DNA from: a virus
Virus record (IMG/VR): IMGVR_UViG_3300045107_000106
Coordinates: 43,080 to 107,079 of that record
DNA length: 64,000 nucleotides
Reading direction: 5' to 3' (one strand)
Shown here piece by piece: positions 1,163-56,926 of the stretch; position 1 is the stretch's first letter; the number at the start of each line of letters is the position of its first letter. The position numbers and the translations under genes are program-made. Under the pieces are notes generated by a model. The model did no database searches and was not told the DNA's origin. It saw nothing but the letters and a program-made list of their open reading frames with translations.

Positions 1163-1193
1163 AAAGCCCGGCCAAGTGCCGGGCTTTTTCTTT
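1163..1193 (+). terminator. Rho-independent terminator after prkA
   Basis: A 7-bp GC stem (GCCCGGC/GCCGGGC) with a CAAGT loop, extended by AAA/TTT pairs and followed by a T-run, lies 17 bases after the prkA stop. Confidence 0.85.
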
Positions 1194-1201
1194 AATAGGA
1201 C

Positions 1202-1230
1202 TTCCAAATGTAAGCCGGATTGTGTAATAT
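1202..1230 (+). promoter_or_regulatory. Possible sigma70-type promoter for the small gene-yeaH-spoVR unit
   Basis: TTCCAA and TAATAT are separated by 17 bases directly after the prkA terminator. A start point about 7 bases downstream would fall at the ATG at 1238. The -35 match is weak, so this is tentative. Confidence 0.3.
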
Positions 1231-1237
1231 GTTGGGC

Positions 1238-1678: not shown

Positions 1679-2864
1679 AATTCAAGAAGACCACAAAGAC
1701 TTCCGGGACGTTGTAGGCGGACGTGTCCGTAGGGAACTGAAGAAGTTCCTGAAAGGGAAGGTCGTCCGCCTACGACCGAAGAACGGGAAGCTCCAGTTCA
1801 CCATCCCGCAGATCGACCAGCCGCACTTCCTCCACGGGGACAACGGCGAGGGCGTCGGCCGGGGCAAGGGTAAGAAGGGTCAGGTCATCGGCCAAGACCC
1901 GCAAGAGGGCGATCCGCAGGCTGGCGAAGAACACGCCGACGGGATCACCATCCAGGTCGATCTCGAAGAAGTGTTGAAGGTCATGCAGGAAGAACTCGGC
2001 CTGCCGGACCTGAAGCCGAAGCCGTCGGAAGTGTACGAGGAAGTCAAGACGGTTTACAACGACATCTCGAAGGTCGGCCCGGAATCGCTACGCCACACCC
2101 GCCGCACGATGTACGAGGCGATGAAGCGGATGGCGATGATGGGCACGCTGGGCGAGAAGAAGATGCTCCCCGGCCACTCCGTCCCGATGCGGGTCATCAC
2201 CCTGGCCGACGGGGACCGCCGCTACCGTCAGTACAAAGAGATCAAGATTCCGTCGTCGAACGCCGTGGTGTTCTTCATCCGGGACTACTCCGGGTCGATG
2301 GACGACTTCCGCTGCGACATCGTTTCCGACATGTCCTGGTGGATCGACGTGTGGATTCGCAAGTTCTACGAGCGGGTAGAGCGGGTCTACATGATCCACG
2401 ACACGGAGGCCGAAGAGGTAGACGAGAAGAAGTTCTACGAAGTCCGGTTCGGCGGCGGCACCAAGATTTCGTGTGCCTTCGACGAGGCGGCGAAGATGCT
2501 GGAGAACCGCTTCCCGGCCCACAACTACAACATCTACGTCATCTACTTCTCTGACGGCGACAATTGGGAAGAAGACAACGCCAAAGTGTCCGACCTGTTG
2601 GGTAAGAAGTTCCCGCCGGAAGTGGTGAACATGGTCGGGTTCGTGCAGATTTGCACCTACAACTACTCACGCAGTATCAAGAAGTTCGTTGACGAACAGA
2701 TCAAGACCGGGGCCATCGGCAAGAACGTCCGCACGGTTACGATTGGTGAAGAGTCCTCCGACAGCAGCAGCATGTTCGGCGGCGGCACGCTCATGACGCC
2801 CGAGGAGCGGGACGAGCAAATCCTGAAGGGAATCAAGACTCTGTTCGGTAAGGAGAAGAACTAA
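1668..2864 (+). CDS. yeaH: YeaH/YhbH family protein (DUF444, VWA-like)
   Basis: A 398-residue DUF444 protein. The N-terminus (about 1-60) is the typical basic stretch (MPRRIQEDHKDFRDVVGGRV). A glycine-rich linker at about 65-85 (GVGRGKGKKGQVIG) precedes the VWA-like domain with the MIDAS-type motif RDYSGSMDDF at about 205. Later come YFSDGDNWEED and GGGTKIS. YeaH/YhbH proteins are encoded with PrkA and SpoVR in many bacteria and act in the same stress or sporulation pathway. The ATG overlaps the preceding gene by 11 bases, and the stop overlaps the spoVR ATG (TAATG). Length and order match bacterial homologues, with no sign of decay. Confidence 0.93.
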   Translation: MPRRIQEDHKDFRDVVGGRVRRELKKFLKGKVVRLRPKNGKLQFTIPQIDQPHFLHGDNGEGVGRGKGKKGQVIGQDPQEGDPQAGEEHADGITIQVDLEEVLKVMQEELGLPDLKPKPSEVYEEVKTVYNDISKVGPESLRHTRRTMYEAMKRMAMMGTLGEKKMLPGHSVPMRVITLADGDRRYRQYKEIKIPSSNAVVFFIRDYSGSMDDFRCDIVSDMSWWIDVWIRKFYERVERVYMIHDTEAEEVDEKKFYEVRFGGGTKISCAFDEAAKMLENRFPAHNYNIYVIYFSDGDNWEEDNAKVSDLLGKKFPPEVVNMVGFVQICTYNYSRSIKKFVDEQIKTGAIGKNVRTVTIGEESSDSSSMFGGGTLMTPEERDEQILKGIKTLFGKEKN

Positions 2865-4465
2865 TGGCTATCAGCAAAATGTTGAACGGTTCGCCTATCC
2901 TGATGGGCAACAACAACGTGCCGGGCGTTCGCATTCACAAAGAAGTCATGGATGTCATGGACACCATCTTCAGTGAATGCCGTAAGTTCGGCCTGGACTT
3001 CTACCCAACCATCGTCGAGTTCTTGACCTACGACGAAATCTCCGAGATCGCCTCATACGGCGGCTTCCCGATCCGCTACCCGCACTGGAGCTTCGGGATG
3101 GAGTACGAGGAACTGTCCCGTGGGTACGAGTACGGCATGCACCGGATCAGCGAGATGGTTGTGAACAACAACCCTTGCTACATCTACTGCCTGGACTCGA
3201 ACACGCTGGTGGACAACATCGACGTGATCGCCCACGCCCTCGGCCACAACCACTTCTTCAAGAACAACGTGTTCTTCAAGGGGACGCACACCGGCATGAT
3301 GGGCAAGTTCGCCGACCATGCCCGCCGCATCCGTAAGTACATGGCCCGGTGGGGCAAGGAGCGGGTGACGGAGTTCATCGACCACTGCCTGCGGCTGAAC
3401 ACGCTCATCGACCCGATGGACAACCTGTATCAGAAGCAGATCAACGACGTGATCGTCAGCGACCACCGGGAATACCGGACGCCGAACCGCCGTCACGCCT
3501 CGTCGAACTACATGGACGACTGGATCAACCCGGTCGAGTACATCAAGAAGGAGAACGAGAAGATCGAAAAGGCGGACGCCGCCGACTACCTGGACATCTT
3601 CGACAAGCCGAACCGTAACATCTTCGGCTATCTGCGTGACCACGCCCCGCTCAAACCGTGGCAGCAGGACATCATCAGCATGCTGTACGAGGAGGCAATG
3701 TACTTCTCGCCGCAGCGGTTGACGAAGATGTTGAACGAAGGGTTCGCCTCGTACACCGACTACTACCTGATGTGCGTCCACGGGCTGTGCGGCCTCGGCC
3801 AGAAGCGGCACGACATGGGCATCATCCAGTACGCCAAGCACAAGATGTTGGTTTTGGGCGGCAAGTACAGCCAGAACCCTTACAAGCTGGGCTTCGAGCT
3901 ACTGACCGACATCGAGGAGCGGTGGAACAAGGGCCGCTTCGGTCGGGAGTACGAGGAGTGCAAGAGCATGAAGGAGCGGGCCGAGTGGGACAAGAAGCTC
4001 GGGCTGGGCAAGGAGAAGGTGTTCGAAGTCTGCCAGTTCTACAACGACGCCCTGGCGATTGCGGAATTCTTCACGCCGGACTTCTGCGAGAAGATGGAAT
4101 ACTTCGAGTACAAGAAGTTTAATAACGGCCAGACGAAGATTCAGAGCCGGGACTACCATAGTATTAAGTCGCAACTCGTCCGGCGTTACATGAATGGCGG
4201 GTTGCCAGATATTCGTCTGACCGACCCGAACCACCTGGGCAAAGGCTGGTTCCTCATGCAGCACTACGGTTGCGGGCTGCCGCTGTACGATCCTTACGCA
4301 AAGGAAACGATCACATCGGTGTTCCGCATCTGGGGTAGCCCCGTGGTTCTGGCTACGAAGAACCCGGACGGTGAGGAATTCGTCTACCTCTGCGATGGGA
4401 CGAACTCCGAGAAGGATGTTCACGTCATGAGACGGGCGGACTACGAGAAGGAGTTTGTCAAATGA
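2864..4465 (+). CDS. spoVR: SpoVR family protein
   Basis: A 533-residue protein covering the full SpoVR/YcgB length. Diagnostic stretches include YPTIVEFLTYDEI, YGGFPIRYPHWSFG, NNPCYIYCLDSNT and DVIAHALGHNHFFKNN near the N-terminus. The C-terminal region carries GWFLMQHYGCGLPLYD. SpoVR proteins take part in Bacillus spore cortex formation; the E. coli homologue YcgB belongs to the PrkA/YeaH stationary-phase module. The start codon overlaps the yeaH stop by one base, and the stop overlaps the next ATG in ATGA, so the unit continues downstream. Family assignment is very secure; why a phage keeps it is unknown. Confidence 0.95.
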   Translation: MAISKMLNGSPILMGNNNVPGVRIHKEVMDVMDTIFSECRKFGLDFYPTIVEFLTYDEISEIASYGGFPIRYPHWSFGMEYEELSRGYEYGMHRISEMVVNNNPCYIYCLDSNTLVDNIDVIAHALGHNHFFKNNVFFKGTHTGMMGKFADHARRIRKYMARWGKERVTEFIDHCLRLNTLIDPMDNLYQKQINDVIVSDHREYRTPNRRHASSNYMDDWINPVEYIKKENEKIEKADAADYLDIFDKPNRNIFGYLRDHAPLKPWQQDIISMLYEEAMYFSPQRLTKMLNEGFASYTDYYLMCVHGLCGLGQKRHDMGIIQYAKHKMLVLGGKYSQNPYKLGFELLTDIEERWNKGRFGREYEECKSMKERAEWDKKLGLGKEKVFEVCQFYNDALAIAEFFTPDFCEKMEYFEYKKFNNGQTKIQSRDYHSIKSQLVRRYMNGGLPDIRLTDPNHLGKGWFLMQHYGCGLPLYDPYAKETITSVFRIWGSPVVLATKNPDGEEFVYLCDGTNSEKDVHVMRRADYEKEFVK

Positions 4466-4980
4466 GTGAAGTCGTCGTCCCTTCACCAACGGTAAAGACC
4501 CCTCTACCCGAGGGGTCCGTTGCCCATGAGGGATTGGAAGTCATCGAAGGTTTCCTCAATACACTGGTTACGCAGTGGGAAACCGAGTACCAGAGCAAGA
4601 GCAAGTGGCTCTGGTTTTTCAAAGCCAAAGTCGGGCTGGCTAAGTGCGCCCGGTTCGTCGCCGGGGCCACGGACGGATTCATCGTTCTGGCCGAAAGGGT
4701 GGGCGAAGCGGGGAGCGGACGGGCAAAGAAGACGCTTGTTACGAATGCCCTGGACCGCCTTTACACGAAGGTCGTGCAGCCCAATCTACCTTTGTGGCTG
4801 AAACCCGTGGGCTGGCTGATCCGGCTCGTGGTGATCCGGTTGATCCTCAGTACACTGATCGACTTCTGCGTCAGCAAGTACAACCAGGGCGATTGGAACG
4901 CCGAAAAGAAGGAAGCGGAAGTCCAGGCTTTGATCGCCCAGAACTTGATCTCACAAGGACTCAAGAAGCAGCAGTTTTAA
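4462..4980 (+). CDS. Putative membrane-associated protein, last gene of the spoVR unit
   Basis: A 172-residue protein starting inside the spoVR stop (ATGA overlap). It has a hydrophobic, tryptophan-containing segment at about 112-135 (PVGWLIRLVVIRLILSTLID), an aromatic/basic patch at about 45-60 (SKSKWLWFFKAKVGLAKC) and a charged C-terminus. This looks like a protein that sits on or crosses the membrane once. No family is recognised. A holin is conceivable from the hydrophobic helix, but nothing else supports lysis. Its coupling to spoVR suggests a role with that module. It converges with, and overlaps by four bases, the minus-strand gene ending at 4977. Confidence 0.65.
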   Translation: MSEVVVPSPTVKTPLPEGSVAHEGLEVIEGFLNTLVTQWETEYQSKSKWLWFFKAKVGLAKCARFVAGATDGFIVLAERVGEAGSGRAKKTLVTNALDRLYTKVVQPNLPLWLKPVGWLIRLVVIRLILSTLIDFCVSKYNQGDWNAEKKEAEVQALIAQNLISQGLKKQQF

Positions 4981-5318
4981 GCAACGCCGAGGGTGCCCGG
5001 TCCTGCGGGCATCTGATTCTGAAGCTCCGGTTCGCCCTGCGGGGTGGGCCGGGGCTTGTTTTTCCACCCGTCCCAAATCTCGAACATTCGGTCACAAACT
5101 TTCTTCAGTTCACCCTTCTCGCCCTTCATGGCGTGGCGGATACGCTCCATGTGCCCGTCGATGGCCTGCACCCGGTCGAAATGCTCTTTGGGCTTGGTTT
5201 TTATCTCGTGCGAGTTAATTTGGGGCTGAAGGCCGGTGCGGATGACTTCCGCAGAAGCGGGCATCGCCGACGCTTTCGCCTCTAACTCTTCGTTCTCTAG
5301 CCACTGTCGGAATCGCAT
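4977..5318 (-). CDS. Small protein with capsid-targeting-like N-terminus (CTS protein A)
   Basis: A 113-residue protein on the opposite strand to its neighbours. The N-terminus, MRFRQWLENEELEAK, resembles the T4 internal-protein signal MKTYQEFIAEA that directs proteins into the prohead and is then cut off. The rest is helical and charged, with a proline-rich tail (PRPTPQGEPELQNQ). A T4-late-like nonamer (GTAGATACC) ends three bases before the ATG and there is no ribosome binding site, so the message may be leaderless. Function is unknown; packaging in the capsid is inferred from the N-terminal pattern shared with the proteins starting at 43581, 47855, 50500 and 54891. Confidence 0.7.
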   Translation of the reverse strand: MRFRQWLENEELEAKASAMPASAEVIRTGLQPQINSHEIKTKPKEHFDRVQAIDGHMERIRHAMKGEKGELKKVCDRMFEIWDGWKNKPRPTPQGEPELQNQMPAGPGTLGVA

Positions 5319-8085: not shown

Positions 8086-8114
8086 AGAAATTCGGCTAGG
8101 AAGCCGATACAATG

Positions 8115-8148
8115 GGCACGGGCGAAGATGCCCGTGCCTGTTTTGTTT
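8115..8148 (+). terminator. Rho-independent terminator after the SPFH gene
   Basis: A 9-bp stem (GGCACGGGC/GCCCGTGCC), loop GAAGAT, followed by TGTTTTGTTT. Confidence 0.85.
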
Positions 8149-8168
8149 CCAAACCAGGGAAGGTTAAC

Positions 8169-9539
8169 ATGTCGAATATGAAGCACCCCATCATGGGGTA
8201 CGAGAACCTGCACCGCCACTCCGAGTACAGTCTGCTGGACGGGTTCGCAAAGGTCGGCGAGTACGCCGCCTACTCCAAAGAGGCAAACCAGCGTTACCTC
8301 TGCATCACCGACCACGGCGTCATGGGGGCCGTTCCGCAGCAGGTCGGCGAGTCCGAAAAGCACGGCCTGAAGCCCATCTTCGGCATCGAGTTCTACATCA
8401 ACCCGATGCAGCCCAAGTCCGAGTACCGTGAGCAGAACGCCGAATTCCGTAAGGGGTTGGGCACCGAGGAAGAACAGAAGCGGTTCGACAAGAGTCACCA
8501 CCTGCTCGGCATCGCCCGCACCAACCAGGGCTACACCAACCTCGTGCGGCTGAGTACCTGGGCCTGGGTTCACGGCTACTACCGTCGGCCCCGCATCAAC
8601 CACGACATCCTGAATCAGTACAAAGAAGGGATCATCTTCACGAGTACCTGTGCCAACAGTGAAATCGCCAACGCCTTCTTCGACCACGGCGAGGAAGCGG
8701 GGATGGCGAAGGTGCAGCAGTACATCGACTTCTTCGGGAAAGAGAACTTCTTCCTCGAACTGATGATGCTCGACTTCAAGATGCAGAAGCCCTACGACGC
8801 CTTCCTGCTACGGGCGATGGATCGGTTCGGCCTGCAAGTCCTGCTCTCCACCGACTGCCACTACTGCAAGAAGGAACACGCCCTGAACCAGCGGATGATG
8901 CTCATGGTTCAGACGGGCCGGACCATGCAGGAGATCGAAGCCCTCGTCGCTTCGGGTGCGGCCGACGACCTGTTCGAGCTTCAGGACACGAACCTGTGGA
9001 TGAAGACCGAAGATGAGATGAACCAGATGTGGGAGGAGAAGTACCAGGACACCATCGACTACGAAATCTTCAAGTGTGCGAAGGCGAACACGGTGAAGGT
9101 GTGCGAGATGTGTGCCGGGGTGCAGATCGACCGGGGCATCAAGCTGCCGATTGAGGAAGACGAAAAGAAGCAGTTGATGAAGTTGATCCGGGAGGGCGTG
9201 GACCGGCGGAAGGTGCCGATGACCCGCCAGTACCTTGACCGAATCAAGGAAGAGTACCAACTGATCTGTGACAAGGGGTTCGCCTCGTACTTCCTGATTC
9301 AGAAGAAGATGGTGGATGAGGCGTTGCGGGTGTGCCCGGAGATTTACGGGTTTCAGGACTCGTCGATGGCCCGAGGGCCGGGGCGGGGGTCAGTAGGCGG
9401 CTCGCTGGTCGCCTACTGTCTGGACATTCACGATCTCGATCCGATCAAGCACGGGCTGCTGTTCTCTCGGTTCCTCAGCCCGGCTCGTGGTGGTAAGCAG
9501 ATGAAAACTCGCTTCTCGCTTAGCCCCTGCGGCGGTTAA
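8169..9539 (+). CDS. dnaE: DNA polymerase III alpha subunit, N-terminal half (PHP domain and start of palm)
   Basis: A 456-residue protein holding the first part of a C-family polymerase. The PHP domain has intact metal-ligand motifs: HRH at 15-17, TDHG at 47-50, GIEFY at about 72-76, and STDCHY near 225. The palm motif GPGRGS at 403-408 continues into SLVAYCLDIHDLDPI and GLLFSRFLSPARGG. The protein then stops after a short unrelated tail (KQMKTRFSLSPCGG), just before the place where the catalytic PDxDxD motif would follow. That motif is in the separate gene at 21703. ATG 8169 is chosen because AGGGAAGG stands in front of it; an ATG at 8112 precedes the terminator. No intein-like sequence is seen at the end. 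The 3' end overlaps a convergent gene by 20 bases. Confidence 0.92.
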   Translation: MSNMKHPIMGYENLHRHSEYSLLDGFAKVGEYAAYSKEANQRYLCITDHGVMGAVPQQVGESEKHGLKPIFGIEFYINPMQPKSEYREQNAEFRKGLGTEEEQKRFDKSHHLLGIARTNQGYTNLVRLSTWAWVHGYYRRPRINHDILNQYKEGIIFTSTCANSEIANAFFDHGEEAGMAKVQQYIDFFGKENFFLELMMLDFKMQKPYDAFLLRAMDRFGLQVLLSTDCHYCKKEHALNQRMMLMVQTGRTMQEIEALVASGAADDLFELQDTNLWMKTEDEMNQMWEEKYQDTIDYEIFKCAKANTVKVCEMCAGVQIDRGIKLPIEEDEKKQLMKLIREGVDRRKVPMTRQYLDRIKEEYQLICDKGFASYFLIQKKMVDEALRVCPEIYGFQDSSMARGPGRGSVGGSLVAYCLDIHDLDPIKHGLLFSRFLSPARGGKQMKTRFSLSPCGG

Positions 9540-13403: not shown

Positions 13404-13797
13404 GGGGCCGCTCCGGTATCGAACCGGCGTCAACGGCCGAAAGGACTTGCGTAGTGGTTGGTCGGTGGGCCACTTAAAAAAGCCGACTAAGCCTTAACTG
13501 GCGATACTCTCAGAATGGCTGCCTGAGTTGTGCCCTCGCAAGGGGGCACCGCAATAGCGGCCAAATGAGTCTTCGGACTCAGGGACTCACAGAAGCGATG
13601 CTCCAAGCGTCTGTGTTTCTCACGCCAAAAAGGAGACGAAGCCTAGTGAGTGTCGGTTGTAGCTAGGCGGGTCGCTAACCGAGAATCCCGGTGGTTTTGC
13701 CAGTTGTACGGCACCGTGGATTATCAACAACTGGATACACGCATAAACGCCTTCGGAAGTTCGCTTGGTCACAGGGGTTCGACTCCCCTCGGCTCCA
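13404..13797 (+). ncRNA. ssrA: Transfer-messenger RNA (tmRNA)
   Basis: The 394-base RNA has a tRNA-like acceptor stem (GGGGCCG at 13404-13410 pairing with CGGCTCC at 13790-13796, one G-T pair). It also has a T arm with the TTCGACT loop closed by AGGGG/CCCCT at 13773-13789. The conserved AAAAAGCCG segment lies just before the tag reading frame. The tag starts at GGC 13500 and reads GDTLRMAA followed by TGA (13524-13526); an A at position -4 of the resume codon fits the known rule. CCA is not encoded (the DNA reads CTA after the discriminator A). tmRNA with SmpB rescues stalled ribosomes and adds a degradation tag. No smpB is visible in the window, so host SmpB is presumably used. Confidence 0.93.
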
Positions 13798-13802
13798 CTA
13801 AG

Positions 13803-14430: not shown

Positions 14431-15522
14431 ATGCCAGCGAAGAAGACGTACTCAGAAGTCGTTAAGTTCTTCCAAAAACAAGGCCATACACTCCTCACTG
14501 AAACCTACCTCGGTTGTAATCAAACTCTCACTTTCAAGTGTCGTTGCGGCGGCACCGGCACCACTACGTTCGCTATGATGCGTGCTATCGTCAACCGGGG
14601 GAATACGTCTGGTTGTAAAGAATGCCGTGGTGATCGCATCGGCGTCTCCAGCCGATTTACTATTGAGCATGCCAAACAAGTCTATGCCGATGCAGGCTGC
14701 AAGCTACTAGAAGATCAATACGTCAACCACATCACCCCTATGCGGTACATCTGCTTCTGCGGACGTGAGGGGCGGACGAGCTACAACTATTTCACCCAGC
14801 ACGGGCGGCATTGTAAACAATGCGGTTTTGAAAAACGCACTGAGAAAATCAAGTTCTCCCAAGAGGAGGTTGAAGCTATCTTCGAAGCAGAGAACTGTCT
14901 CCTCCTCGGCACATACACCGGCTATCACGATTACATTGATTACATCGCTCAATGTAATCACAAAAGTAACGTCACCCTACAGTATTTCCGAGTCGGGGGC
15001 GGTCGGCAGTGCTGGAAGTGCAGTTGGGAAAACAGGGGGTGGCGTGGCCCAGACTGGACTTTCGAGCAGGTCCGTGATTACGTCGCCTCCCACGGCTGCG
15101 TGCTGCTCTCCACCAGCTACAGCGGCGTGAAAGACCAGATTGAGTACCGCTGCATCTGTGGGTTTCAAACCGAAATCCGATTCAGCAACTTCAAAGAAGG
15201 ACACCGTTGCAAAGAATGTTCCAACCGGCTCGGTGGAGATCGCAGGCGGCACTCCTTCGAATTCGTCAAACTCTTCTTCCAAGAAGCGGGGTGCCGACTC
15301 CTCGCCGATGAGTACGTCGGAAAGGACACGGTGATGCCCTACATCTGCGTTTGCGGTCGAAAATCCAAAATCTGCTTCGCCAGCTTCGCCCGAGGGAGTC
15401 GCTGTAAAGACTGTGGGTTCGTGAAGATCAGTGAATCACAACAACTCGCTCGGCGGCTCTGGGAGGAGGCAGAACTAGGCGATCTGGACAAAATTCTCTC
15501 AGACCGCTTGCGTTGTGATTGA
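14431..15522 (+). CDS. Tandem zinc-cluster repeat protein, five repeats
   Basis: A 363-residue protein built of five repeats of about 60-65 residues. Each has the form F..V..F...GC.LL...Y......M.YIC.CGR......F..G..C..C, giving four cysteines (CxC...CxxC) per unit; one C is replaced by H in repeat 3 (AQCNHKSN). The C-terminal tail (ARRLWEEAELGDLDKILSDR) is shared with the next gene. The repeats look like treble-clef or zinc-ribbon modules that bind nucleic acid; no nuclease motif is seen. Strong site AGGAGG in front. It is probably the paralogue of the gene at 15573 and a passenger of the same mobile island as the HNH gene. Confidence 0.75.
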   Translation: MPAKKTYSEVVKFFQKQGHTLLTETYLGCNQTLTFKCRCGGTGTTTFAMMRAIVNRGNTSGCKECRGDRIGVSSRFTIEHAKQVYADAGCKLLEDQYVNHITPMRYICFCGREGRTSYNYFTQHGRHCKQCGFEKRTEKIKFSQEEVEAIFEAENCLLLGTYTGYHDYIDYIAQCNHKSNVTLQYFRVGGGRQCWKCSWENRGWRGPDWTFEQVRDYVASHGCVLLSTSYSGVKDQIEYRCICGFQTEIRFSNFKEGHRCKECSNRLGGDRRRHSFEFVKLFFQEAGCRLLADEYVGKDTVMPYICVCGRKSKICFASFARGSRCKDCGFVKISESQQLARRLWEEAELGDLDKILSDRLRCD

Positions 15523-15572
15523 GTTGTGTTTAAGATGTGTTTGTGTTGAGGAGACGAGGCAAGGAGGCCGGA

Positions 15573-16484
15573 ATGAGGAGGCTGACATTCGAGTTCGTGC
15601 GGGATGAATTCCGCAAGGCGGGTTGCACACTCCTAGCGACCAGCTACTCCCGCAACAGCGAAAAGCTTCCTTATATCTGCAAGTGTGGTCGTCGGTCGCA
15701 GATCACTTGGAATAAATTCAAAGAAGGGCAACGGTGTTATGATTGCCGCAATCGCAAGATCGGCGATTGCAAACGGACCGACTACGAAGATGTGGTCGCA
15801 TATTATTACGACCAGCAATGTACCCTGCTTGCGGATAAGTATCACGATTGTGATACCCCGATGCCGTTCATTTGTGTCTGCGGCAGAGAAGGTATAACCA
15901 CCTTCTATAACTTCAAACATCTTGGGGTTCGATGTCTCGCTTGTGCCCACGAGAAGACGGGGGACGCATATAGGTATACCCTTGAGCAAGTTAAGGAATT
16001 CTTTCTCGATCAAGGGTGTGTACTTCTTGCAGATAAGTATGTAAATGCCTTCACAGTGATGCCTTACCTGTGTCATTGTGGAAGGTATGCCGAGATCATT
16101 TGGAATTCCTTCCAACGGGGGAACAGGTGTAAGGCGTGTGGTATCGAAAAAATTGCGAATGACCGGAAGTTCAGCTACGAATATGTCAAGATGTACTTTG
16201 AGGGGCGGGGGTGTACCCTCCTATCTTCCGAGTATGTCAACTCTCAGACGCCACTGGAGTACCGTTGTGCCTGTGGCGAAATTGCTAAAGTAACCTTCAA
16301 CCGCTTTACCTCTCAGGGATCGCTGTGTTGGAGTTGCCGTGATCGTAGAGCATGGCAGGTACGTCGAGAGAACGAGAAGCTGTGGAATGAGTCCAACTTG
16401 GACGCAGACCTTGACCGATTACTCACAGAGAGGTGCCGTGGAGAGCAGGCATCCCTCTTAAACAACGCTCTCAAGGAGAAGTAA
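15573..16484 (+). CDS. Tandem zinc-cluster repeat protein, four repeats
   Basis: A 303-residue paralogue of the preceding gene with four repeats (for example FVRDEFRKAGCTLLATSY, PYICKCGRRSQITWNKF, GQRCYDC). It ends in the same kind of tail (EKLWNESNLDADLDRLLTER). The start is ATG 15573 behind AAGGAGG. Its DNA is visibly more AT-rich and less codon-biased than surrounding phage genes, which suggests recent acquisition or low expression. DNA or RNA binding is inferred from the repeated four-cysteine modules. Confidence 0.73.
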   Translation: MRRLTFEFVRDEFRKAGCTLLATSYSRNSEKLPYICKCGRRSQITWNKFKEGQRCYDCRNRKIGDCKRTDYEDVVAYYYDQQCTLLADKYHDCDTPMPFICVCGREGITTFYNFKHLGVRCLACAHEKTGDAYRYTLEQVKEFFLDQGCVLLADKYVNAFTVMPYLCHCGRYAEIIWNSFQRGNRCKACGIEKIANDRKFSYEYVKMYFEGRGCTLLSSEYVNSQTPLEYRCACGEIAKVTFNRFTSQGSLCWSCRDRRAWQVRRENEKLWNESNLDADLDRLLTERCRGEQASLLNNALKEK

Positions 16485-21702: not shown

Positions 21703-24363
21703 ATGAAGGAACGTGACGAACTGGTAGCCCTGCTGGAAGCGGCTTTGGACGCAAAGGGCTTACGGAACGATCAGTACACAAATCGACTGGCTCTCGAACT
21801 GAAAGAACTCGACGTTCTTGAAGAACACGAATACTTTCTCAAGCTGCACAAAGAGGGGAAGAAGTACCCTGAGAACGAGAACAACCTTCTCGTCCCATAT
21901 CTGCTCGACCTGTGCCCCGACTTCGACATCAACCGGGAACCCGCCTACAACCAGGGCGAGTTCCCCGACATCGACATGGACTACCTGCCGCTCGTCCGTG
22001 ACCACTTGAAGAACGAGTGGGCGGTGAAGGAGTACGGCCGGGATTACGTCTGCTCCATCGGCACCTACGGCACCCTGGGCATCAAGGCAGCCATGCTCGA
22101 CATGGCCCGTGTCCACGGCGTCCCGAAGGACGAAGTGCAGATGGTTACGAAACAGGTCGAAGACAAGGACGACGAAGGCGAGCCGATGGAGTGGGACAAG
22201 GCTCTCGAACTCTACGCCGACTTCAAGGCGTTCTGCGAGCGGCACCCGGACGTGGCCGCAGCCGCCAAGATGATGCTGGACCGGAACAAATCGGGCGGCG
22301 TCCACGCCGGGGGACTCATCATCTCCTCCAAGCCGATCCAAGACTTCGTGCCGCTCGAAGTGCGGTCAGTGAAGAAGGAGAACAAGCACGGCGTCCTCGT
22401 CTCGGCGTGGTGCGAGGGGCAGGCCACCCAGGACTTGCAGCCGGTCGGGCTGGTGAAGTTCGACTTGCTGGTGGTGGACGGGTTGATGCAGATCGCCCAG
22501 GCGTGCGAACTCATCCGCCAGCGGCACGGCATCGAGCGGATCAACGCCCTGCCGGGCGGGCGGAACTGGAGCGACACGGCCTACCTCAACGACCCGAAGG
22601 CGTTGGCGATGGCGAACAAGGCCGACCTGAAGTGCGTGTTCCAGTTCGGGTCGGACGGCATCCGGGCGATGGTCAAGCGGGGCGGCGTGACGAGCTTCGA
22701 CGACCTGATGGCGTACTCGGCCCTCTACCGCCCCGGCCCGCTGAACATGGGGATGGATAAGCACTACTGCGACCGGAAGAAGGGGATCGAGCAGTGGAGC
22801 ATCCACCCGCTGCTCATGCCGATCCTGGGGCGGACTTACGGGGTTCTTGTTTACCAAGAGCAGTGTATGCAAGTCCTCCACACGGTAGGACTCATCCCGC
22901 TCATTCACTGCGAGAAGGTCCGCAAGGCCATCTCGAAGAAGAAGATCGCCCTGTTCGCCAAGTACAAGGACATGTTCATTACGAACGGTCAGAAGGTACT
23001 CGGCGAGAGCGAGGAGTTCGTCCGTGACCTGTGGGACCAGATCGAGGCGTTCGCCGACTACGGCTTCAACGCCAGCCACAGTTGTGCGTACACCTACATC
23101 TCCTCCCGGCAGTTGTGGCTCAAGGCCCACTACCCGCTGGAGTATTACACTGCGGTCCTGATGTGCGAAGACCAGTCGGACAAGATTAAGGAGATCAAGC
23201 AGGACGCCCGGAAGCACGGCATCGAAGTCAAGCCGGTGCATATCAACCACAGCCGGGAACTGTTCCGCATCGTGGACAACGACATCTACTACGGGTTCAG
23301 TAACCTGAAGAAAGTCGGCGAGGCGGTGGCGAAGCGGATCGTGGCGGGGCAACCCTACGCCTCGTTCGAGGACTTCCTGCAACGGTTCGGGACCGACATG
23401 CAGGTGTTGAAGCCGCTCATCTCCCTCGGCGTGTTCGAGGAGAAGGTGGACCGGATCACGCTGTACAAGTTCTACGACAAGTACAGCGATTGGCTCAAGA
23501 AGTGTAAGAGCCGGGACAAGCGGTTCGAGGAGAGCCAAGCCAAGTACGAAACCGAACTCCGGGAACTGCTGAAGCAGTACGGGGCGGACGAGAAGGAAGT
23601 CGAGGCGATGGCCCGGTTCGACGATGATGTCATCAGTGAATGGGAAGCCCGGTTCGGCAACATCAAGGTCGAACAGCAGTACAAGTACAAGGGCGAGATG
23701 CGGACCCGTGAAGTGTCCGTGGTCAAGTTCATGACCGACATCCACGGGCGGCGGAACAAGGGCGTGCGAGGCCAGGAGGAGAAGACCCGGCTCGACCAAG
23801 AGGAACCGCCGACCCTGGCGACCTTCAACGCTAAGACGTGGCCGCTGGAGCAGGCGATCATCGAACTGCTCTCCGACGAGAAGGCAGCCGAACAGGAATA
23901 CTACGGCTTCCAGTGGGTACACGACCTGGAAGAAAGCCCCGACTACGAAGGGTTCACCATCGACCGCTTCACCGAGGTTGTGGCGAACCGGAAGGAGCCG
24001 AGGGGTGCCATCGAGGTTAAGGTACTCCAGGTGACGAAGCGGGAGTTCAAGACCGGCACCATCGCCTACGACGTGAAGGTGGAAGACGCCAACGGCAAGG
24101 TGGTGATCGTCCGGTTCTGGAGCGACGACTACACCCGGTTCCAAGAGGAGATCACGCCCGGTGCGCTCCTACGGCTGCACGTCAAGCCGCCGGAAGGGTT
24201 CCCGAGCTATTCCTTCTGGGCACCGCCGAAGCACCTGCGGCACCGGCTTGTCCCGAAGGATAAGAGCCTGGACGACCGGCTGTACGTCCTGACGCCGGGG
24301 GCGAAGAAGGTTGTCGTGCAAGAGGAGAAACCGGAAGAGGGATTCGAACTGATGGAAGCCTGA
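21703..24363 (+). CDS. dnaE: DNA polymerase III alpha subunit, C-terminal catalytic half
   Basis: An 886-residue protein that continues the polymerase interrupted at 9539. The first about 85 residues (MKERDELVALLEAALDAKGL and onward) have no clear counterpart in E. coli DnaE. Catalytic PDIDMD is at 88-93, and the third acidic residue lies in GLVKFDLLVVDGL at about 250. Fingers motifs include SALYRPGPLNMGM, YQEQCMQVL, KVRKAISKK, FADYGFNASHSCAYTYIS and RQLWLKAHYPLEYY. The C-terminus holds a helix-hairpin-helix-like region (FSNLKKVGEAVAKRI) and an OB-fold domain (about 770-850). It has a ribosome binding site (TAGGAGA), so it is translated independently. No intein C-fragment is seen. Both halves together would make a complete enzyme. 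Confidence 0.95.
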   Translation: MKERDELVALLEAALDAKGLRNDQYTNRLALELKELDVLEEHEYFLKLHKEGKKYPENENNLLVPYLLDLCPDFDINREPAYNQGEFPDIDMDYLPLVRDHLKNEWAVKEYGRDYVCSIGTYGTLGIKAAMLDMARVHGVPKDEVQMVTKQVEDKDDEGEPMEWDKALELYADFKAFCERHPDVAAAAKMMLDRNKSGGVHAGGLIISSKPIQDFVPLEVRSVKKENKHGVLVSAWCEGQATQDLQPVGLVKFDLLVVDGLMQIAQACELIRQRHGIERINALPGGRNWSDTAYLNDPKALAMANKADLKCVFQFGSDGIRAMVKRGGVTSFDDLMAYSALYRPGPLNMGMDKHYCDRKKGIEQWSIHPLLMPILGRTYGVLVYQEQCMQVLHTVGLIPLIHCEKVRKAISKKKIALFAKYKDMFITNGQKVLGESEEFVRDLWDQIEAFADYGFNASHSCAYTYISSRQLWLKAHYPLEYYTAVLMCEDQSDKIKEIKQDARKHGIEVKPVHINHSRELFRIVDNDIYYGFSNLKKVGEAVAKRIVAGQPYASFEDFLQRFGTDMQVLKPLISLGVFEEKVDRITLYKFYDKYSDWLKKCKSRDKRFEESQAKYETELRELLKQYGADEKEVEAMARFDDDVISEWEARFGNIKVEQQYKYKGEMRTREVSVVKFMTDIHGRRNKGVRGQEEKTRLDQEEPPTLATFNAKTWPLEQAIIELLSDEKAAEQEYYGFQWVHDLEESPDYEGFTIDRFTEVVANRKEPRGAIEVKVLQVTKREFKTGTIAYDVKVEDANGKVVIVRFWSDDYTRFQEEITPGALLRLHVKPPEGFPSYSFWAPPKHLRHRLVPKDKSLDDRLYVLTPGAKKVVVQEEKPEEGFELMEA

Positions 24364-32435: not shown

Positions 32436-32912
32436 ATGAAACTGGTTGCACCGGAAGACATCCCTCTGGGGGAGATCGTACCGCTCGACAACAAGGCCAA
32501 AATCTACAACATCTTCACCAATATGATTAAGATGTGTGAAGAGAAAGAAGGGATTGGCCTATCGGCGGTACAGGTCGGCCTGCCATACAAGATGTTTGTC
32601 GTCAAAGACGGCGACAAATACAGGTGTTTCCTGAACTGCGATTACGAACCGACTACCGAAGCTAAACGAACGTTGTCCCTCGAAGGGTGCCTGTCTCTGC
32701 GGTCGCTAGACGGTCGCTTGCGATTCTTCGAGGTTGAGCGGTGGGACCAGATCAAGGTATCTGGAACCGAATTTTGTTTATCATCTATTGATTTTATATT
32801 TGGTTTTATTGAGTGCGTCAGTTCCCCCTTGTGCGTTGTGTTTCAACATGAGATTGACCACGACAAGGGGGTTCTGATCTCTCAGATAGGCAAGGAAGTA
32901 TCGCTCTTTTGA
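32436..32912 (+). CDS. def: Peptide deformylase
   Basis: A 158-residue protein with the three deformylase motifs in order: GIGLSAVQVG (about 40), EGCLS (about 84) and QHEIDHDKG (about 138). The latter two carry the metal-binding Cys and His residues and the catalytic Glu. The enzyme removes the formyl group from new proteins at the ribosome exit. The stretch between the second and third motifs (about 105-135, FCLSSIDFIFGFIECVSS) is unusual for the family and is encoded by the most AT-rich DNA in the neighbourhood, which suggests a locally acquired segment. It belongs to the translation-related cluster with bS21. Confidence 0.93.
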   Translation: MKLVAPEDIPLGEIVPLDNKAKIYNIFTNMIKMCEEKEGIGLSAVQVGLPYKMFVVKDGDKYRCFLNCDYEPTTEAKRTLSLEGCLSLRSLDGRLRFFEVERWDQIKVSGTEFCLSSIDFIFGFIECVSSPLCVVFQHEIDHDKGVLISQIGKEVSLF

Positions 32913-40472: not shown

Positions 40473-40997
40473 GTGTTCAATAAGAAATACGACCCGAAGC
40501 AGAAGAAGCAATTCACTCGGGTGAACGAGCAGATTCGCATCTCCCCTGTCCTCGTCGTCAAAGACGGGCAGAAGTTGGGCACCATGCCCAACTACGAGGC
40601 ACTGCGGTTGGCTCGTGACGAAGGGCTTGATCTCGTCGAGATTTCGCCCAACTCCCGCCCTCCGGTCTGCTCGATCATGGACTACGGGAAGTTCAAGTTC
40701 GACCAGTCCAAAAAGAAGAAGGACAAGGGTTCCGCCCAAAAGGAAAAGGAAGTGTCCTTCCGGTACGTCGTGGGCGATCACGACCTGGAAACCAAAGTCA
40801 ACCAGATCAAGGGCTGGCTGGAGTCCGGGGAACGGGTCAAGATCACGGTCAAGTTCAAAGGCCGGGAGAACGCCCACAAAGACGAGGGGATGGTCGTCAT
40901 CAACAAGTGCCTTGAGTTATTGAAGGACGTGGCAAACGTGGAGAAGAAGCCGTCCTTCGAGGGCAGCCAAATCATCGCACGCCTCACCAAGAAGTAA
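40473..40997 (+). CDS. infC: Translation initiation factor IF-3
   Basis: A 174-residue protein with both IF3 domains. The N-domain (about 15-80) has VNEQIRISPVLVV, EALRLARDEGLDLVEISPNS, PPVCSIMDYGKFKF. The linker is Lys-rich. The C-domain (about 90-174) has KEVSFRYVVGDHDLETKVNQ, VKITVKFKGRENAH and SFEGSQIIARLTKK. Length and order match bacterial IF3. IF3 binds the 30S platform, prevents premature 50S joining and checks start-codon and initiator-tRNA pairing. A phage copy, together with bS21 and tmRNA, suggests redirection of initiation. The start is GTG with AGGGGG upstream, and an 11-codon ORF ends right before it. Confidence 0.95.
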   Translation: MFNKKYDPKQKKQFTRVNEQIRISPVLVVKDGQKLGTMPNYEALRLARDEGLDLVEISPNSRPPVCSIMDYGKFKFDQSKKKKDKGSAQKEKEVSFRYVVGDHDLETKVNQIKGWLESGERVKITVKFKGRENAHKDEGMVVINKCLELLKDVANVEKKPSFEGSQIIARLTKK

Positions 40998-43580: not shown

Positions 43581-43919
43581 ATGCAATTCCGTGAGTTCGT
43601 AGTTCAGGAAGGCGATCTCCTGAAATCCATCGTGTTCGGCGTCAGGCAGGGCATCAAGAAGTTCAACGAGAAGCCAACCCCGCCGCCCGAGAAAAAGGTG
43701 TCGGAAAAGAAGCAAATCCTCAATCAACTAATGTCGGCGACGAACGACAAAGACCTGTCGGCTGTCGTCGAAAAGATGATTCAGAATAACTTGAGGCTTA
43801 CCGCCAACGGCGAACTGAAGAAACCCAACAAGAACTGGTTGATGGAGAGACATGTACACGCACAAAAACGGAATCACCTTCAGAAAGGTCGAGGAAGACG
43901 ACCTGCGGTTACTGCTTGA
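43581..43919 (+). CDS. Small protein with capsid-targeting-like N-terminus (CTS protein B)
   Basis: A 112-residue protein on the plus strand with N-terminus MQFREFVVQEGDLLKS, the same F-[RK]-x-[FW]-[LIV]-x-x-E pattern as the minus-strand CTS candidates. It is basic, with a Pro/Lys stretch (KPTPPPEKKVSEKKQ) and an Arg/Lys/His-rich tail (MERHVHAQKRNHLQKGRGRR). The tail overlaps the acetyltransferase gene by 68 bases. A DNA-binding internal head protein would have this look; this is inference. Confidence 0.55.
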   Translation: MQFREFVVQEGDLLKSIVFGVRQGIKKFNEKPTPPPEKKVSEKKQILNQLMSATNDKDLSAVVEKMIQNNLRLTANGELKKPNKNWLMERHVHAQKRNHLQKGRGRRPAVTA

Positions 43920-47143: not shown

Positions 47144-47455
47144 ATGGAATGGGATACACTTAAGAAAAGCGTGCTGTTCTGGGTCGTGGTTGGTTTCACC
47201 GCCCTCAACGTCTCGGCTTTCCTCTTCTCGAAGTTCATCATTCACCAGACCACTCAGCGGGTGCTGGAGAAGCTTCAAAAGGAATACTCGCCGTCGCCTT
47301 ACGGTCCTGGCTTCGACCCGGATCGGGTGAACATCGACGGCCTCAAGCAACAACCGGCACCGGGCGGTCCATTCCCTGTGGCCTTCACTGAAGGCAATGA
47401 CGCAGAGTGGGAAGCGGGATGGGAAAAGGCCAGAGGCTTTAATCCAGAACGATAG
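47144..47455 (+). CDS. Single-span membrane protein
   Basis: A 103-residue protein with an N-terminal membrane helix (about 9-28, VLFWVVVGFTALNVSAFLFS), a short coiled part (TTQRVLEKLQKEY) and a Pro/Gly-rich tail. The ribosome binding site is GGGAGG. Its 3' end overlaps a convergent late gene. Family unknown. Confidence 0.65.
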   Translation: MEWDTLKKSVLFWVVVGFTALNVSAFLFSKFIIHQTTQRVLEKLQKEYSPSPYGPGFDPDRVNIDGLKQQPAPGGPFPVAFTEGNDAEWEAGWEKARGFNPER

Positions 47456-47855
47456 CCTTCGTAATGCGTGAGTGGTTCTTGGCGGCATCTTTGGGGTGCC
47501 GCTGGAACGAAATCATCATCGTCTTCCCCAACTTCGGCTCACCCTTAATCCGCTTGAACTCATCGTAAGTAAAGTTAGCCTCGGTCCCGTCCGACAGCCG
47601 GATGAAGATCGGGTTTCGTTTGGTCAAGAGAGTTGTGATTCTACCCTGTCGCTCGATCTGCGGGATTTGCAGGTCCGTGGACGGGAGCATGAGCGAGTGG
47701 CCCGGCGACACTTCCTGGGCCTCAGACCCGTTCACGTCGCTGCTGACGTAAGCCCCCGCCTGCTGCTGGAACCCCTTGACGCCGAACAGCCGGTCCATCT
47801 GGCCTGGGATGTTACCCAGGGCGATTTCCTCATTGATGAAGTCTTTGAAATTCAT
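47439..47855 (-). CDS. Protein with capsid-targeting-like N-terminus (CTS protein C)
   Basis: A 138-residue protein starting MNFKDFINEEIALGNIPGQ, a clear member of the F-[KR]-x-[FW]-[LI] set with INE, which fits the (L/I)xE cleavage rule of T4-type prohead proteases. The C-terminal half is strand-rich (RITTLLTKRNPIFIRLSDGT, GKTMMISFQRHP) and may be a small beta-barrel. A late-like nonamer (ATATATACC) lies upstream. Packaging is inferred; function unknown. Confidence 0.68.
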   Translation of the reverse strand: MNFKDFINEEIALGNIPGQMDRLFGVKGFQQQAGAYVSSDVNGSEAQEVSPGHSLMLPSTDLQIPQIERQGRITTLLTKRNPIFIRLSDGTEANFTYDEFKRIKGEPKLGKTMMISFQRHPKDAAKNHSRITKAIVLD

Positions 47856-49340: not shown

Positions 49341-50069
49341 ATGAAGACAGTTTGGAACCCGCTCGAATCGCCAGAGAAGCCGGAACTCACCATCGACCTG
49401 CAAGACGGCAGCACCGAACAGGTGTCGATCATCGTCCTGCACCACAACCGGCCCGAATTCTTGAACATGTGCTTGCAGTCGATCCACGTCATGTCGAACT
49501 GCAACAACTACGAAGTCGTCGTGGTTGACAACGCATCCACAGACCCGGACGCCCACGAATTCCTCGACGCCATCGAGAAGGAAGGCGTCAAGGTCGTCCG
49601 CAACAAGACCAACCTCTACTGGTCGGCCGGTGCCAACATCGGTGCCTCCGTGGCCGACAAGCTCTCCAAGTACCTCGTGTTCATGCACTGCGACACGGTT
49701 GTCCTCAACCAGTCGTGGCTCGACGTGATGATTAACGTCTCCGTCGCCAAGAACAGCGGCTTGGTCGGCAACCAGTTGTCCTCGTACTACGTCCACCGGC
49801 ACAAGGCCGACTTCGTGCAGGAGTGGTGCATGCTGATGACCCGTGAGTGTTGGAACGACTGCGGCCCGTGGCCGGAGGAACTGCCGCTCATCGGCCACTC
49901 GTTCATCATGACCCTGAACGCACAAAACCGTGGGTACAAGCCCACGGCCTCGACGAACAACCTCGTCCACCACTACCGGGCGATCTCCTTCGACCCGAAC
50001 GAGTTCGAGCGGATGAGTGAACAGGCTATGACGATCATTCCAAAGCTCATGCAGAAGGCACAAGCTTAA
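49341..50069 (+). CDS. Family 2 glycosyltransferase
   Basis: A 242-residue GT-A protein: VSIIVLHHNRPEFLNMCLQS at about 28, VVVDNASTDPDAHEF at about 58, and the metal-binding segment FMHCDTVVLNQSW at about 113. The rhamnosyltransferase-like layout is intact. It likely takes part in surface glycan changes along with the cluster at 42-46 kb. It overlaps a convergent gene by four bases. Confidence 0.85.
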   Translation: MKTVWNPLESPEKPELTIDLQDGSTEQVSIIVLHHNRPEFLNMCLQSIHVMSNCNNYEVVVVDNASTDPDAHEFLDAIEKEGVKVVRNKTNLYWSAGANIGASVADKLSKYLVFMHCDTVVLNQSWLDVMINVSVAKNSGLVGNQLSSYYVHRHKADFVQEWCMLMTRECWNDCGPWPEELPLIGHSFIMTLNAQNRGYKPTASTNNLVHHYRAISFDPNEFERMSEQAMTIIPKLMQKAQA

Positions 50070-50500
50070 GACGGCAAGTTCTCAATGAACTTGTTCCAGG
50101 CCGGGCAGTCGTGAACGACGACCCGATTCTTGACGTAGTAGTTGGCGTAGGCCATGCAAAACAGTTCCTCCGGGGACTGTTTTTGTCGTTTAGGGTTCAT
50201 CGGGACGACCTTAGCCCACGCCTTCTTGTAGTTGTCAGGCAGCCGTTCCCAAACCCGGTGGCCGATCTCGTGCAGGATGGTGAACTCCCGGCCGTAGTTC
50301 CACGGGGCGGCGACGGCGATCTCCTTCCCCTTCTCGTCCATGTAGCCGACGTGTTCGTCATCCCCGTCCAGGGTGTTGCCGGGCTGGAACTTGAAGTCAA
50401 ATCCCTTGACGAGCGCACGGTGCGACGGCGGCAGCTTCCCCAGCATTTGCTGGAGGTTCTTCGTCTCTTCGTTCTCTAGGAATGTGCGGAAGGTTAACAT
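50066..50500 (-). CDS. Zinc metalloprotease with capsid-targeting-like N-terminus (CTS protein D)
   Basis: A 144-residue protein. The N-terminus MLTFRTFLENEETKN fits the capsid-targeting-like set. The catalytic motif is HEIGH at about 93-97 (TILHEIGHRVWERLP), and a downstream SPEELFCMAYANYY at about 115-130 supplies a glutamate in the position typical of gluzincin proteases (ImmA/IrrE or lethal-factor type). The ATG at 50500 is set by a late-like nonamer (ATAGATACT) five bases upstream; longer frames are not supported. A protease packed into the head and injected with the DNA would be well placed to cut host repressors or defence proteins. Packaging and target are inferred. Confidence 0.75.
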   Translation of the reverse strand: MLTFRTFLENEETKNLQQMLGKLPPSHRALVKGFDFKFQPGNTLDGDDEHVGYMDEKGKEIAVAAPWNYGREFTILHEIGHRVWERLPDNYKKAWAKVVPMNPKRQKQSPEELFCMAYANYYVKNRVVVHDCPAWNKFIENLPS

Positions 50501-50505: not shown

Positions 50506-50514
50506 AGTATCTAT
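50506..50514 (-). promoter_or_regulatory. T4-late-like promoter element (ATAGATACT)
   Basis: Matches nTAnATACY, five bases before the ATG at 50500. Confidence 0.55.
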
Positions 50515-50691: not shown

Positions 50692-50883
50692 GTGGCGACC
50701 TGCGGAAATAAGTCGGTCTTGTCCCCGATGGGTGGTCGTCGGGAAGCAAAGTCGGCCGGATGTCGAATCTGCGGTACACCAAATCCACCTGTTAATAGCT
50801 ATAGATACGGGCATAACACCATCGAGGAGTTACATGCCAAAGAAGAAGACGGTAGCAAATCAACCTCCGAAGCAACACGGTAA
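50692..50883 (+). CDS. Doubtful small ORF overlapping phoH start
   Basis: A GTG with GAGGA in front opens a 63-residue frame with Cys pairs (MATCGN, GCRICGTPNPP) that overlaps the phoH start by 50 bases. It could be a small zinc protein or a chance frame in the leader. Confidence 0.3.
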   Translation: MATCGNKSVLSPMGGRREAKSAGCRICGTPNPPVNSYRYGHNTIEELHAKEEDGSKSTSEATR

Positions 50884-51622
50884 GGATTTCCACATCGAGT
50901 TGCTAAACGGTGCCCAGAAACTTGCCTGGGCGGCTTTCCAACAGCACGACGTTCTGTTCCTGATTGGCCCGGCCGGTTGCGGTAAGACTTTCCTGTCCTG
51001 TGCATTCGCAGTTAAGGAACTGCTCTCCAAGTCCAAGTCTAAGATCGTACTCACCCGCCCGATTGTCGAAGCCGGTGAATCCCTCGGTTATCTTCCGGGT
51101 GACTTCTACGAGAAGGTCAACCCCTACATGATGCCGATGTACGACTGCCTGGACAAGCTGGTGGGCCGGGAAGGCACTCCCCTCCGGGAGAAGATCATGA
51201 ACGACATCGAGATCGCTCCTCTAGCATTCATGCGTGGTAGAACGTTTGACGATGCCGTGTGCTTGCTGGACGAGGCTCAGAACTGCTCCATGCAACAACT
51301 CAAGCTGTTCATGACCCGGTTTGGCGAGAACTCCAAGATCATCATCACCGGCGACCCGAACCAGTCGGACCTTCGGGGCAACGTCGCCCTGATCCAAGCG
51401 GTGCGTAAACTCCGTGGCGTGAGCGGAATCGGCGTCGTGGAGTTCAAGAACAACTCCATCGTGCGTCACCCGCTGGTCGGATCGATCCTCGACGCCCTGG
51501 CCGAAGAAGGCGAAGTCAACCACTCCTACACCCCGGTACTGGAAGACACGGCTGAAGAGGCCGACGAGGACGACGGCGACGTGCCGAGCTACTACCCGAA
51601 GCGGCTGCGGGACATCGACTAA
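50834..51622 (+). CDS. phoH: PhoH-like ATPase
   Basis: A 262-residue protein with Walker A LIGPAGCGKTFLSCAFA at about 38-54, Walker B VCLLDEAQN at about 144 and the TGDPNQSDLRG motif at about 178. It carries TRPIVEAGESLGYLPGD, typical of PhoH. The acidic tail ends YYPKRLRDID. The chosen ATG has GAGGAG in front; the frame is open further upstream but without a start signal. PhoH proteins are frequent in T4-like and marine phages and resemble RNA helicase/nuclease ATPases; the role in infection is unsettled. Confidence 0.93.
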   Translation: MPKKKTVANQPPKQHGKDFHIELLNGAQKLAWAAFQQHDVLFLIGPAGCGKTFLSCAFAVKELLSKSKSKIVLTRPIVEAGESLGYLPGDFYEKVNPYMMPMYDCLDKLVGREGTPLREKIMNDIEIAPLAFMRGRTFDDAVCLLDEAQNCSMQQLKLFMTRFGENSKIIITGDPNQSDLRGNVALIQAVRKLRGVSGIGVVEFKNNSIVRHPLVGSILDALAEEGEVNHSYTPVLEDTAEEADEDDGDVPSYYPKRLRDID

Positions 51623-54405: not shown

Positions 54406-54891
54406 TCACATTTGCGGCGGTTGACCCGGCAGAGCGGCCGGTTGTTGACCCTGCGGCGGCGTCTGGCCCGGCGGCGGGGTCGGGGGTGGCGTCTCGGGCA
54501 TTGCCGCCTGATCGACTTCCTGGCCTGCGTCCTGCGGGGCGGCGTTGAGGTTGTTCACCTTGCCGCCGATCTTACCGGCCAACTGTTCGAGCGACTGCAC
54601 GAGGTTGGGGATGTCGTCCTTGAGGGTGTTCTTCTCCTCGACGGACTTCATCAGTGCAACCCCGATCTTCTGGAGTTCGATCAGGTGCCCACGCACCTTC
54701 GGCGACCACGAACTGTGAAGAATCTTGCGGATGGCGTCCACAATGTCTTCGGCCACTTTGGCGATGTGACGAAGCCCCATGCCGTCCATGTCGGTCTGAA
54801 GGTCTTGCATGGACGTAAGAACGTCACCGATCTGGTGGTTCAGATAGGCTTTGTCCTCGTTCAGTAAGAATTCCTTGAAGCTCAATGGCAT
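54406..54891 (-). CDS. Protein with capsid-targeting-like N-terminus and Pro/Gln tail (CTS protein E)
   Basis: A 161-residue protein starting MPLSFKEFLLNEDKAYLNHQ. FKEFLLNE is the closest match in the window to the T4 internal-protein start TYQEFIAE. Helices fill residues 20-115, followed by a Pro/Gln/Ala-rich tail (PETPPPTPPPGQTPPQGQQP). The late-like nonamer TTATATACT ends three bases before the ATG and no ribosome binding site is present. Internal head protein status is inferred. Confidence 0.7.
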   Translation of the reverse strand: MPLSFKEFLLNEDKAYLNHQIGDVLTSMQDLQTDMDGMGLRHIAKVAEDIVDAIRKILHSSWSPKVRGHLIELQKIGVALMKSVEEKNTLKDDIPNLVQSLEQLAGKIGGKVNNLNAAPQDAGQEVDQAAMPETPPPTPPPGQTPPQGQQPAALPGQPPQM

Positions 54892-56593: not shown

Positions 56594-56926
56594 TTACTCT
56601 TCTTCTTCGTTGTTTCTCGGGGCAGTCGGGATTTGACCCCGCTGAACCACCCACACGCCCTGCTGGGGCTGGTTATTAGGCAGCTTCCGACCGGCCGGAA
56701 CGGCAGTGCGGATCACGAAAATGATCCAGTACACCGCACACCACGACAGAAAGTCCAACGGGATGTTCAGGTTGAACAGGTAGTTCAGGCTCTCGATGGT
56801 CAGGATCGGCGAGCCGATCAAAAGTAATAGAGCCAGGAAGGCCAGAAAGAAGAACCCCCTGGCCTCATCTTTTCGGCCGTCCTTCCACCAGTAGATGCCT
56901 TCTTGCAGGAATTCTAGGAACAGCAT
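56594..56926 (-). CDS. Small membrane protein with two helices
   Basis: A 110-residue protein with hydrophobic segments at about 25-47 (FFFLAFLALLLLIGSPILTI) and 55-76 (IPLDFLSWCAVYWIIFVIRT). A polar tail ends NNEEEE. The site AAGGAGA precedes the ATG. Family unknown. Confidence 0.65.
   Translation of the reverse strand: MLFLEFLQEGIYWWKDGRKDEARGFFFLAFLALLLLIGSPILTIESLNYLFNLNIPLDFLSWCAVYWIIFVIRTAVPAGRKLPNNQPQQGVWVVQRGQIPTAPRNNEEEE

Follow-up and report, generated by a model that had tools for sequence, protein, structure and literature searches.

We examined a 64,000-nucleotide stretch of viral DNA (the window; positions 43,080 to 107,079 of IMG/VR record IMGVR_UViG_3300045107_000106) and focused on a putative zinc metallopeptidase gene on its minus strand at 50066-50500. 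The 144-residue product, MLTFRTFLENEE...ILHEIGH...SPEELFCMAYAN, is called the protease below. A sequence-only reading had described it as a capsid-targeting-like start joined to HEIGH and a downstream EE pair, and the translation, 17 homologues, and a set of invariant residues confirm the protein, its start, and its HEIGH. Upstream, the frame stays open as far as a TTG at 50572; we took the ATG at 50500 as the start because the starts of the homologues agree with it, and a mis-called start was considered and rejected. Features of the locus are collected in Table 1.

Table 1. Features of the protease locus and related genes in the window
Feature	Position	Strand	Basis
Stand-alone gluzincin-like protein, 144 residues, with leader resembling the T4 capsid targeting sequence	50066..50500	-	Translation, homologues, alignment, model
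Leader MLTFRTFLENEE; F4, F7, and L8 match Y4, F7, and I8 of the T4 IPII/IPIII leader	50465..50500	-	Alignment, T4 comparison
HEIGH, residues 77-81; predicted zinc ligands H77 and H81, predicted catalytic E78	50258..50272	-	Alignment; model helix 69-86
E112, invariant Glu, predicted third zinc ligand	50165..50167	-	Alignment; model helix 110-122
TAGATA (TA[TAG]ATA class), 7 nucleotides upstream of the protease ATG	50508..50513	-	Upstream scan
138-residue protein MNFKDFINEE..., second leader-bearing gene of the syntenic block	47439..47855	-	17 loci, mostly with leader
PhoH-like ATPase, divergent neighbour, present at 18/18 loci	50834..51622	+	Locus comparison
Leader-bearing protein MPLSFKEFLLNEDK...	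54406..54891	-	LR756511.1 homologue (33% identity) also with leader
Leader-bearing protein MRFRQWLENEE...	4977..5318	-	Leader motif
Leader-bearing protein MQFREFVVQEGD...	43581..43919	+	Leader motif

A search of 50,697 phage records found a single relative of the protease, in LR756511.1, an uncultured phage of 595 kb (45.5% identity over 97%). A single-sequence search of viral contigs gave no match; a search of IMG/VR with the two-row alignment recovered 16 loci on contigs of 50-436 kb, bringing the homologues in other large phages to 17. None was found in GTDB genome contigs (84,980 bacterial and archaeal genomes). Judging from these sequences, the protease is kept in at least 18 very large phages. 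Since the 16 IMG/VR loci and LR756511.1 all encode it, its sequence is conserved by selection, and by that evidence the gene is real; a chance HEXXH was considered and rejected. Statements on conservation rest on 16 aligned rows, in which identity to the window protein is 41-58%. Invariant in all of them are H77, E78, H81, E112, F4, and F7, together with most of a block around NYGREF (N68-F73). The EE pair falls at residues 111-112 (50165-50170), and only its second half stood up: E112 is invariant, whereas E111 varies.

An AlphaFold2 model built on the same alignment (predicted local distance difference test 90.3, predicted template modelling score 0.84) places strands at 35-65, the HEXXH motif on a helix at 69-86, as expected for a gluzincin, and E112 on a later helix at 110-122, with an extra helix (89-101) in between; the metal site is thus a predicted one. 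The best PDB neighbours found by Foldseek are IrrE, anthrax lethal factor, PprI, Certhrax, and PPEP-3. Nearly all of the best matches are zincins, with probabilities up to 0.96 but E values of 0.04-0.3, and neighbours in a viral structure library include IrrE-like and polyvalent phage proteins. In the suggested comparison with ImmA/IrrE, IrrE is the nearest PDB match and the predicted zinc-site residues lie on the expected helices, at fold E values none of which is below 0.001. Sequence-based signals were fainter. Of the Pfam signals, Peptidase_M78 (PF06114) and ATLF (PF07737) turn up most often in the members, always weakly or below cut-off: 3/16 members match M78 (best E 0.0026, short of the gathering cut-off), the window member has no M78 match at E 0.5, and ATLF reaches 11.7 bits against a cut-off of 27.4. 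Searching the protease against PHROGs and Pfam returned nothing over cut-off, and a sequence search of solved structures gave no match of note. A gluzincin-type zincin of the IrrE/lethal-factor type is well supported by the model, because the predicted fold is nearest to IrrE/PprI, anthrax lethal factor, and PPEP-3; in view of the weak M78 and ATLF signals and the weak fold E values we call the protease gluzincin-like and not a member of M78 or M34.

With Peptidase M78 (ImmA/IrrE, PprI, CapP) the protease shares the HEXXH helix, the later helix with the third ligand, and its nearest PDB match, but its sequence lies under the Pfam cut-off, no partner repressor gene was recognised alongside, and it has a leader. 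The C-terminal domain of lethal factor and the PPEP proteins (M34) share with it the weak ATLF signal and the Foldseek matches; the protease is much smaller, has no binding domains, and has a bacterial host. Lethal factor also has a longer spacing between HEXXH and the Glu. SprT-like and ArdC-like zincins of jumbo phages are likewise phage zincins suggested to cut host proteins, but they belong to another family and no packaging signal has been described for them (PMC7824862).

The leader resembles the capsid targeting sequence of T4. The first ten residues of T4 IPIII (MKTYQEFIAE) are sufficient for packaging; mutants of the T4 leader assign targeting mainly to residues 4 and 7 and processing to residues 8 and 10, and an Asp at position 10 stops processing of IPIII but not its targeting (PMC9026906). 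Both targeting positions are aromatic in the protease. The capsid-targeting-like start noted in the sequence-only reading thus matches the experimentally critical T4 positions, and it recurs on many unrelated proteins. Like the T4 proteins with this sequence (IPI, IPII, IPIII, and Alt), the proteins described here begin with a short leader in which residues 4 and 7 are aromatic and residue 8 is hydrophobic; an enzyme or anti-defence cargo and a gp23-type capsid are also common to both. They differ in that the cargo at this locus is a zincin protease, many more genes per genome have the leader, residue 10 of the window protease is not Glu, and FxxW versions are common in LR756511.1.

We compared the leader motif at gene starts with the same motif at internal Met residues. 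A first regular expression accepted only F as the first aromatic and allowed no more than 2 residues ahead of E. We widened it following the T4 control, in which the motif recovers IPII and IPIII; the widened version was fixed before the S-CREM2 test below. The leader is found at 39/1800 starts versus 7/2991 internal Met residues in LR756511.1 (p=5e-11), at 18/1317 versus 4/2437 in the huge phage G014 (p=9e-6), and at 9/242 versus 0/557 in the window's contig (p=2e-5). Two further huge phages, G004 (13/1063 versus 6/2291) and G002 (13/948 versus 5/1769), give p values of about 0.001 each. P-SSM2 has it at 5/485 starts versus 0/1094; phiKZ (1/645 starts) and T7 (0/81) show no enrichment. Only a spacing of two residues between the aromatics (F-x2-aromatic) is enriched, and spacings x0, x1, x3, and x4 are not. 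Going by the rate at internal Met residues, chance would account for a minority of hits (very roughly one in six), so single hits are not trustworthy alone; a membrane protein at 56594-56926 is an example.

Within one phage, the bodies of leader-bearing proteins are unrelated at E 1e-3, and spread of the leader by recent duplication was rejected on this ground. The cargo includes two C39 peptidases, an ART-PolyVal protein, a SprT-like protease, a NUDIX protein, a HAD protein, an S-adenosylmethionine (SAM) lyase, and a tRNA-ligase-type 2H phosphodiesterase; for several of them the activity is known, or has been proposed, to counter host defences. Because dozens of other phage enzymes have the T4-like leader, it is probably the mark of a group of weapons that travel with the DNA. 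In LR756511.1, the gene immediately after the protease homologue (L002:20414-21196) also begins with a leader (MKFSEWLTLKEN) and has a CTAAATA element ahead of it.

As an outside check we turned to the T4-like cyanophage S-CREM2, whose virion proteome has been published (PMC10665884 Table 3). At annotated starts, the leader is present on 4/28 non-structural virion proteins versus 1/167 undetected proteins (p=0.0016) and on 0/24 structural proteins. The four are a SAM hydrolase (MKDFDSFLEE), an APH-like kinase (MKRFDAFLTEE), a cytidylyltransferase (MKNFSSFLTEA), and gp136. In S-SCSM1, 2/3 leader proteins are virion-detected (the NMNAT gp91, MKSFLQFLKEA, and gp31; gp30 is not labelled virion), and the IrrE-like gp264, which has no leader, is not labelled a virion protein. 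These tests cover one full proteome (S-CREM2) and a partial second (S-SCSM1); the S-CREM1 text has no proteome table. The authors of the S-CREM2 and S-SCSM1 papers caution that abundant proteins may co-purify with virions, so the result is an association. From the leader on S-CREM2 virion proteins, packaging of leader-bearing proteins is likely. Two single genes are of interest beside these. An IMG/VR contig encodes a 450-residue leader-bearing protein with a SAM lyase domain (L119:6179-7528, the contig of L007), the same activity class as the leader-bearing SAM hydrolase of the S-CREM2 virion. S-CREM2 gp12 (OR473000.1 7704-10313) is a virion-detected Cas9-like nuclease whose annotated start has no leader; FASFMAE lies ~18 residues in, so the leader may be internal or the start wrongly annotated.

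Leader genes also share an upstream element. We scored TA[TAG]ATA (TAAATA, TATATA, or TAGATA) at most 22 bases ahead of the start codon, and found it in LR756511.1 before 26/37 leader genes versus 81/1024 others (p=2e-19). The corresponding counts are 9/18 versus 38/700 in G014, 8/12 versus 27/643 in G004, 5/11 versus 22/533 in G002, 4/7 versus 10/281 in G007, and 3/9 (the protease included) versus 2/131 in the window contig. The element is thus enriched before leader genes in all six huge phages tested, but as its class was picked after viewing upstream sequences of LR756511.1 and the window contig, only the remaining phages provide an unbiased test. P-SSM2, T4, and phiKZ show no such enrichment. 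Many more genes behind the element have looser leaders. By its sequence it resembles the T4 late promoter, TATAAATA, the exact form of which is not enriched in LR756511.1 and is found in 2/18 in G014.

We consider it probable that the protease is a small injected zinc metallopeptidase that is loaded by its leader and cleaves a host protein. It would be made together with the other leader-bearing proteins and enter the prohead by means of its N-terminal leader, with its aromatics at positions 4 and 7. It would then stay in the head beside the DNA and reach the host together with it; in the cytoplasm it would cleave one or a few host proteins, most likely a component of a first-response defence or a regulator. 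We infer the packaging of the protease itself, its catalysis, and the nature of its target, and, by analogy with T4 Alt and the T4 internal proteins, that it is injected and cuts a host protein. In T4 the host RNA polymerase is modified by Alt, and IPI, an inhibitor and not an enzyme, blocks a restriction enzyme (PMC9026906); IPIII stripped of its capsid targeting sequence and expressed in the host restores growth on ECOR17 (PMC9391042). Several observations weigh against this proposal. L8 fits gp21 processing, which calls for a hydrophobic residue 8 and Glu at 10, but residue 10 is Asn, which leaves the T4-type cleavage site imperfect; LLE, LTE, or LIE is seen there in some homologues. Leader enrichment in G007 alone is not significant, the virion proteomes come from phages without this protease, and the 138-residue leader-bearing neighbour belongs to a family without known function. 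A gp21-type protease was found in LR756511.1 only, and the best fold matches stay above E 0.001.

The main rival, which we regard as unlikely, is that the protease is packaged by its leader but acts inside the head as a maturation or processing peptidase for other internal proteins. Such a role has been proposed by the respective authors for packaged polyvalent-protein zincins (PMC5512222) and, in group 1 jumbo phages, for an uncharacterised zincin (PMC7824862), and it would suit the failure to detect an S77 or S78 protease in most of these phages. That absence is weak evidence, because the S77 model likewise gives no match in phiKZ, a phage reported to encode a gp21-type (prohead) protease (PMC5694885). 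LR756511.1, moreover, has both the protease and a gp21-type protease adjoining its gp23-like capsid gene, and the genes around the protease form a metabolic block and not a head cluster.

It is also improbable that the leader is an assembly or docking motif for some other late process, with the protease working late in the infected cell. The leader is indeed found on proteins of unassigned, possibly structural role, and the virion test comprises one full and one partial proteome, but the matched residues are those mutated in T4, the S-CREM2 motif is confined among virion-detected proteins to non-structural ones, and in S-SCSM1 the virion labels follow the leader in two of three cases and pass over the leaderless IrrE gene. 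We think it very improbable that the zincin fold is kept with catalysis lost or unimportant, the protein being a structural or decoy internal protein that binds DNA or a partner. DNA binding is known for some IrrE-like proteins (8sln is a complex of PprI with single-stranded DNA) and T4 IPI offers the precedent of an inhibitor (PMC9026906), yet the four predicted catalytic and ligand residues are invariant in 16/16 members.

The claim that no effector of this build had been described holds in part. The T4 capsid targeting sequence and packaged zincins are already known, with zincin domains in packaged polyvalent proteins (PMC5512222) and T4 Alt, IPI, and IPIII as precedents; none that we found joins both in a stand-alone protein. 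Polyvalent-protein zincin domains (N4 vRNAP, P1 DdrB, ArdC) share the fold class, HEXXH with a downstream Glu, and delivery with phage or plasmid DNA, but each is one domain of a long multidomain chain, whereas the protease is a single 144-residue domain with a short leader. A packaging leader is present on P1 DarB as well, but no sequence common to Dar proteins was found (PMC9024508). In the open-licence literature we found no report of a stand-alone protease with such a leader, nor of a leader and promoter defining a large repertoire outside the T4 group, and both appear to be new. We lean somewhat towards a broader proposal, that huge phages with gp23-type heads use head-based delivery of unrelated enzymes, tens of genes in one genome, which are loaded by the leader M-x-x-F-x-x-[FWY]-hydrophobic...E and expressed from a TAAATA-like element at the start codon; of the members found, the protease would be the one retained most widely. 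Should the leader act in packaging beyond T4-like coliphages, the injected proteins of uncultured huge phages could be listed from sequence alone, and the long-standing question of what large phages deliver before they express their first gene could be settled. That list already has anti-restriction, anti-signalling, and proteolytic enzymes, among which the protease would, if the proposal is true, be a first-wave weapon against a host protein.

Around the protease, glycosyltransferase, dUTPase-like, and DnaJ genes are present at most of the 18 loci. The 138-residue leader protein is on the same strand as the protease at each of the 17 loci that have it, and these are the two genes kept on the opposite strand of the block. 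Genes for gp23-like capsid proteins were found in six relatives (LR756511.1, G002, G003, G004, G012, and G014). LR756511.1 has a second, diverged copy of the gp21-type prohead protease (W01:242618-242992), far from the capsid gene.

Elsewhere in the window, ARAGORN and Rfam (RF00023) identify a transfer-messenger RNA gene (13404-13798, plus strand; tag GDTLRMAA), and the Rfam scan returned no other family. Plus-strand genes at 40473-40997 and 32436-32912 read as translation initiation factor IF-3 (an IF-3-like gene is present in 8 related loci) and peptide deformylase; with the transfer-messenger RNA they suggest phage control of translation. Three adjacent genes at 9-4465 (plus) read as a PrkA-type kinase, YeaH/DUF444, and SpoVR. 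DNA polymerase III alpha is apparently split between two plus-strand genes 12 kb apart (8112-9539 and 21703-24363), with the break before the PDIDMDY active-site motif and no intein ends seen by eye. At 14431-16484 (plus) lie two adjacent proteins of repeated CxC zinc-ribbon-like units of ~60 residues each (...CTLL...Y.C.CG...).
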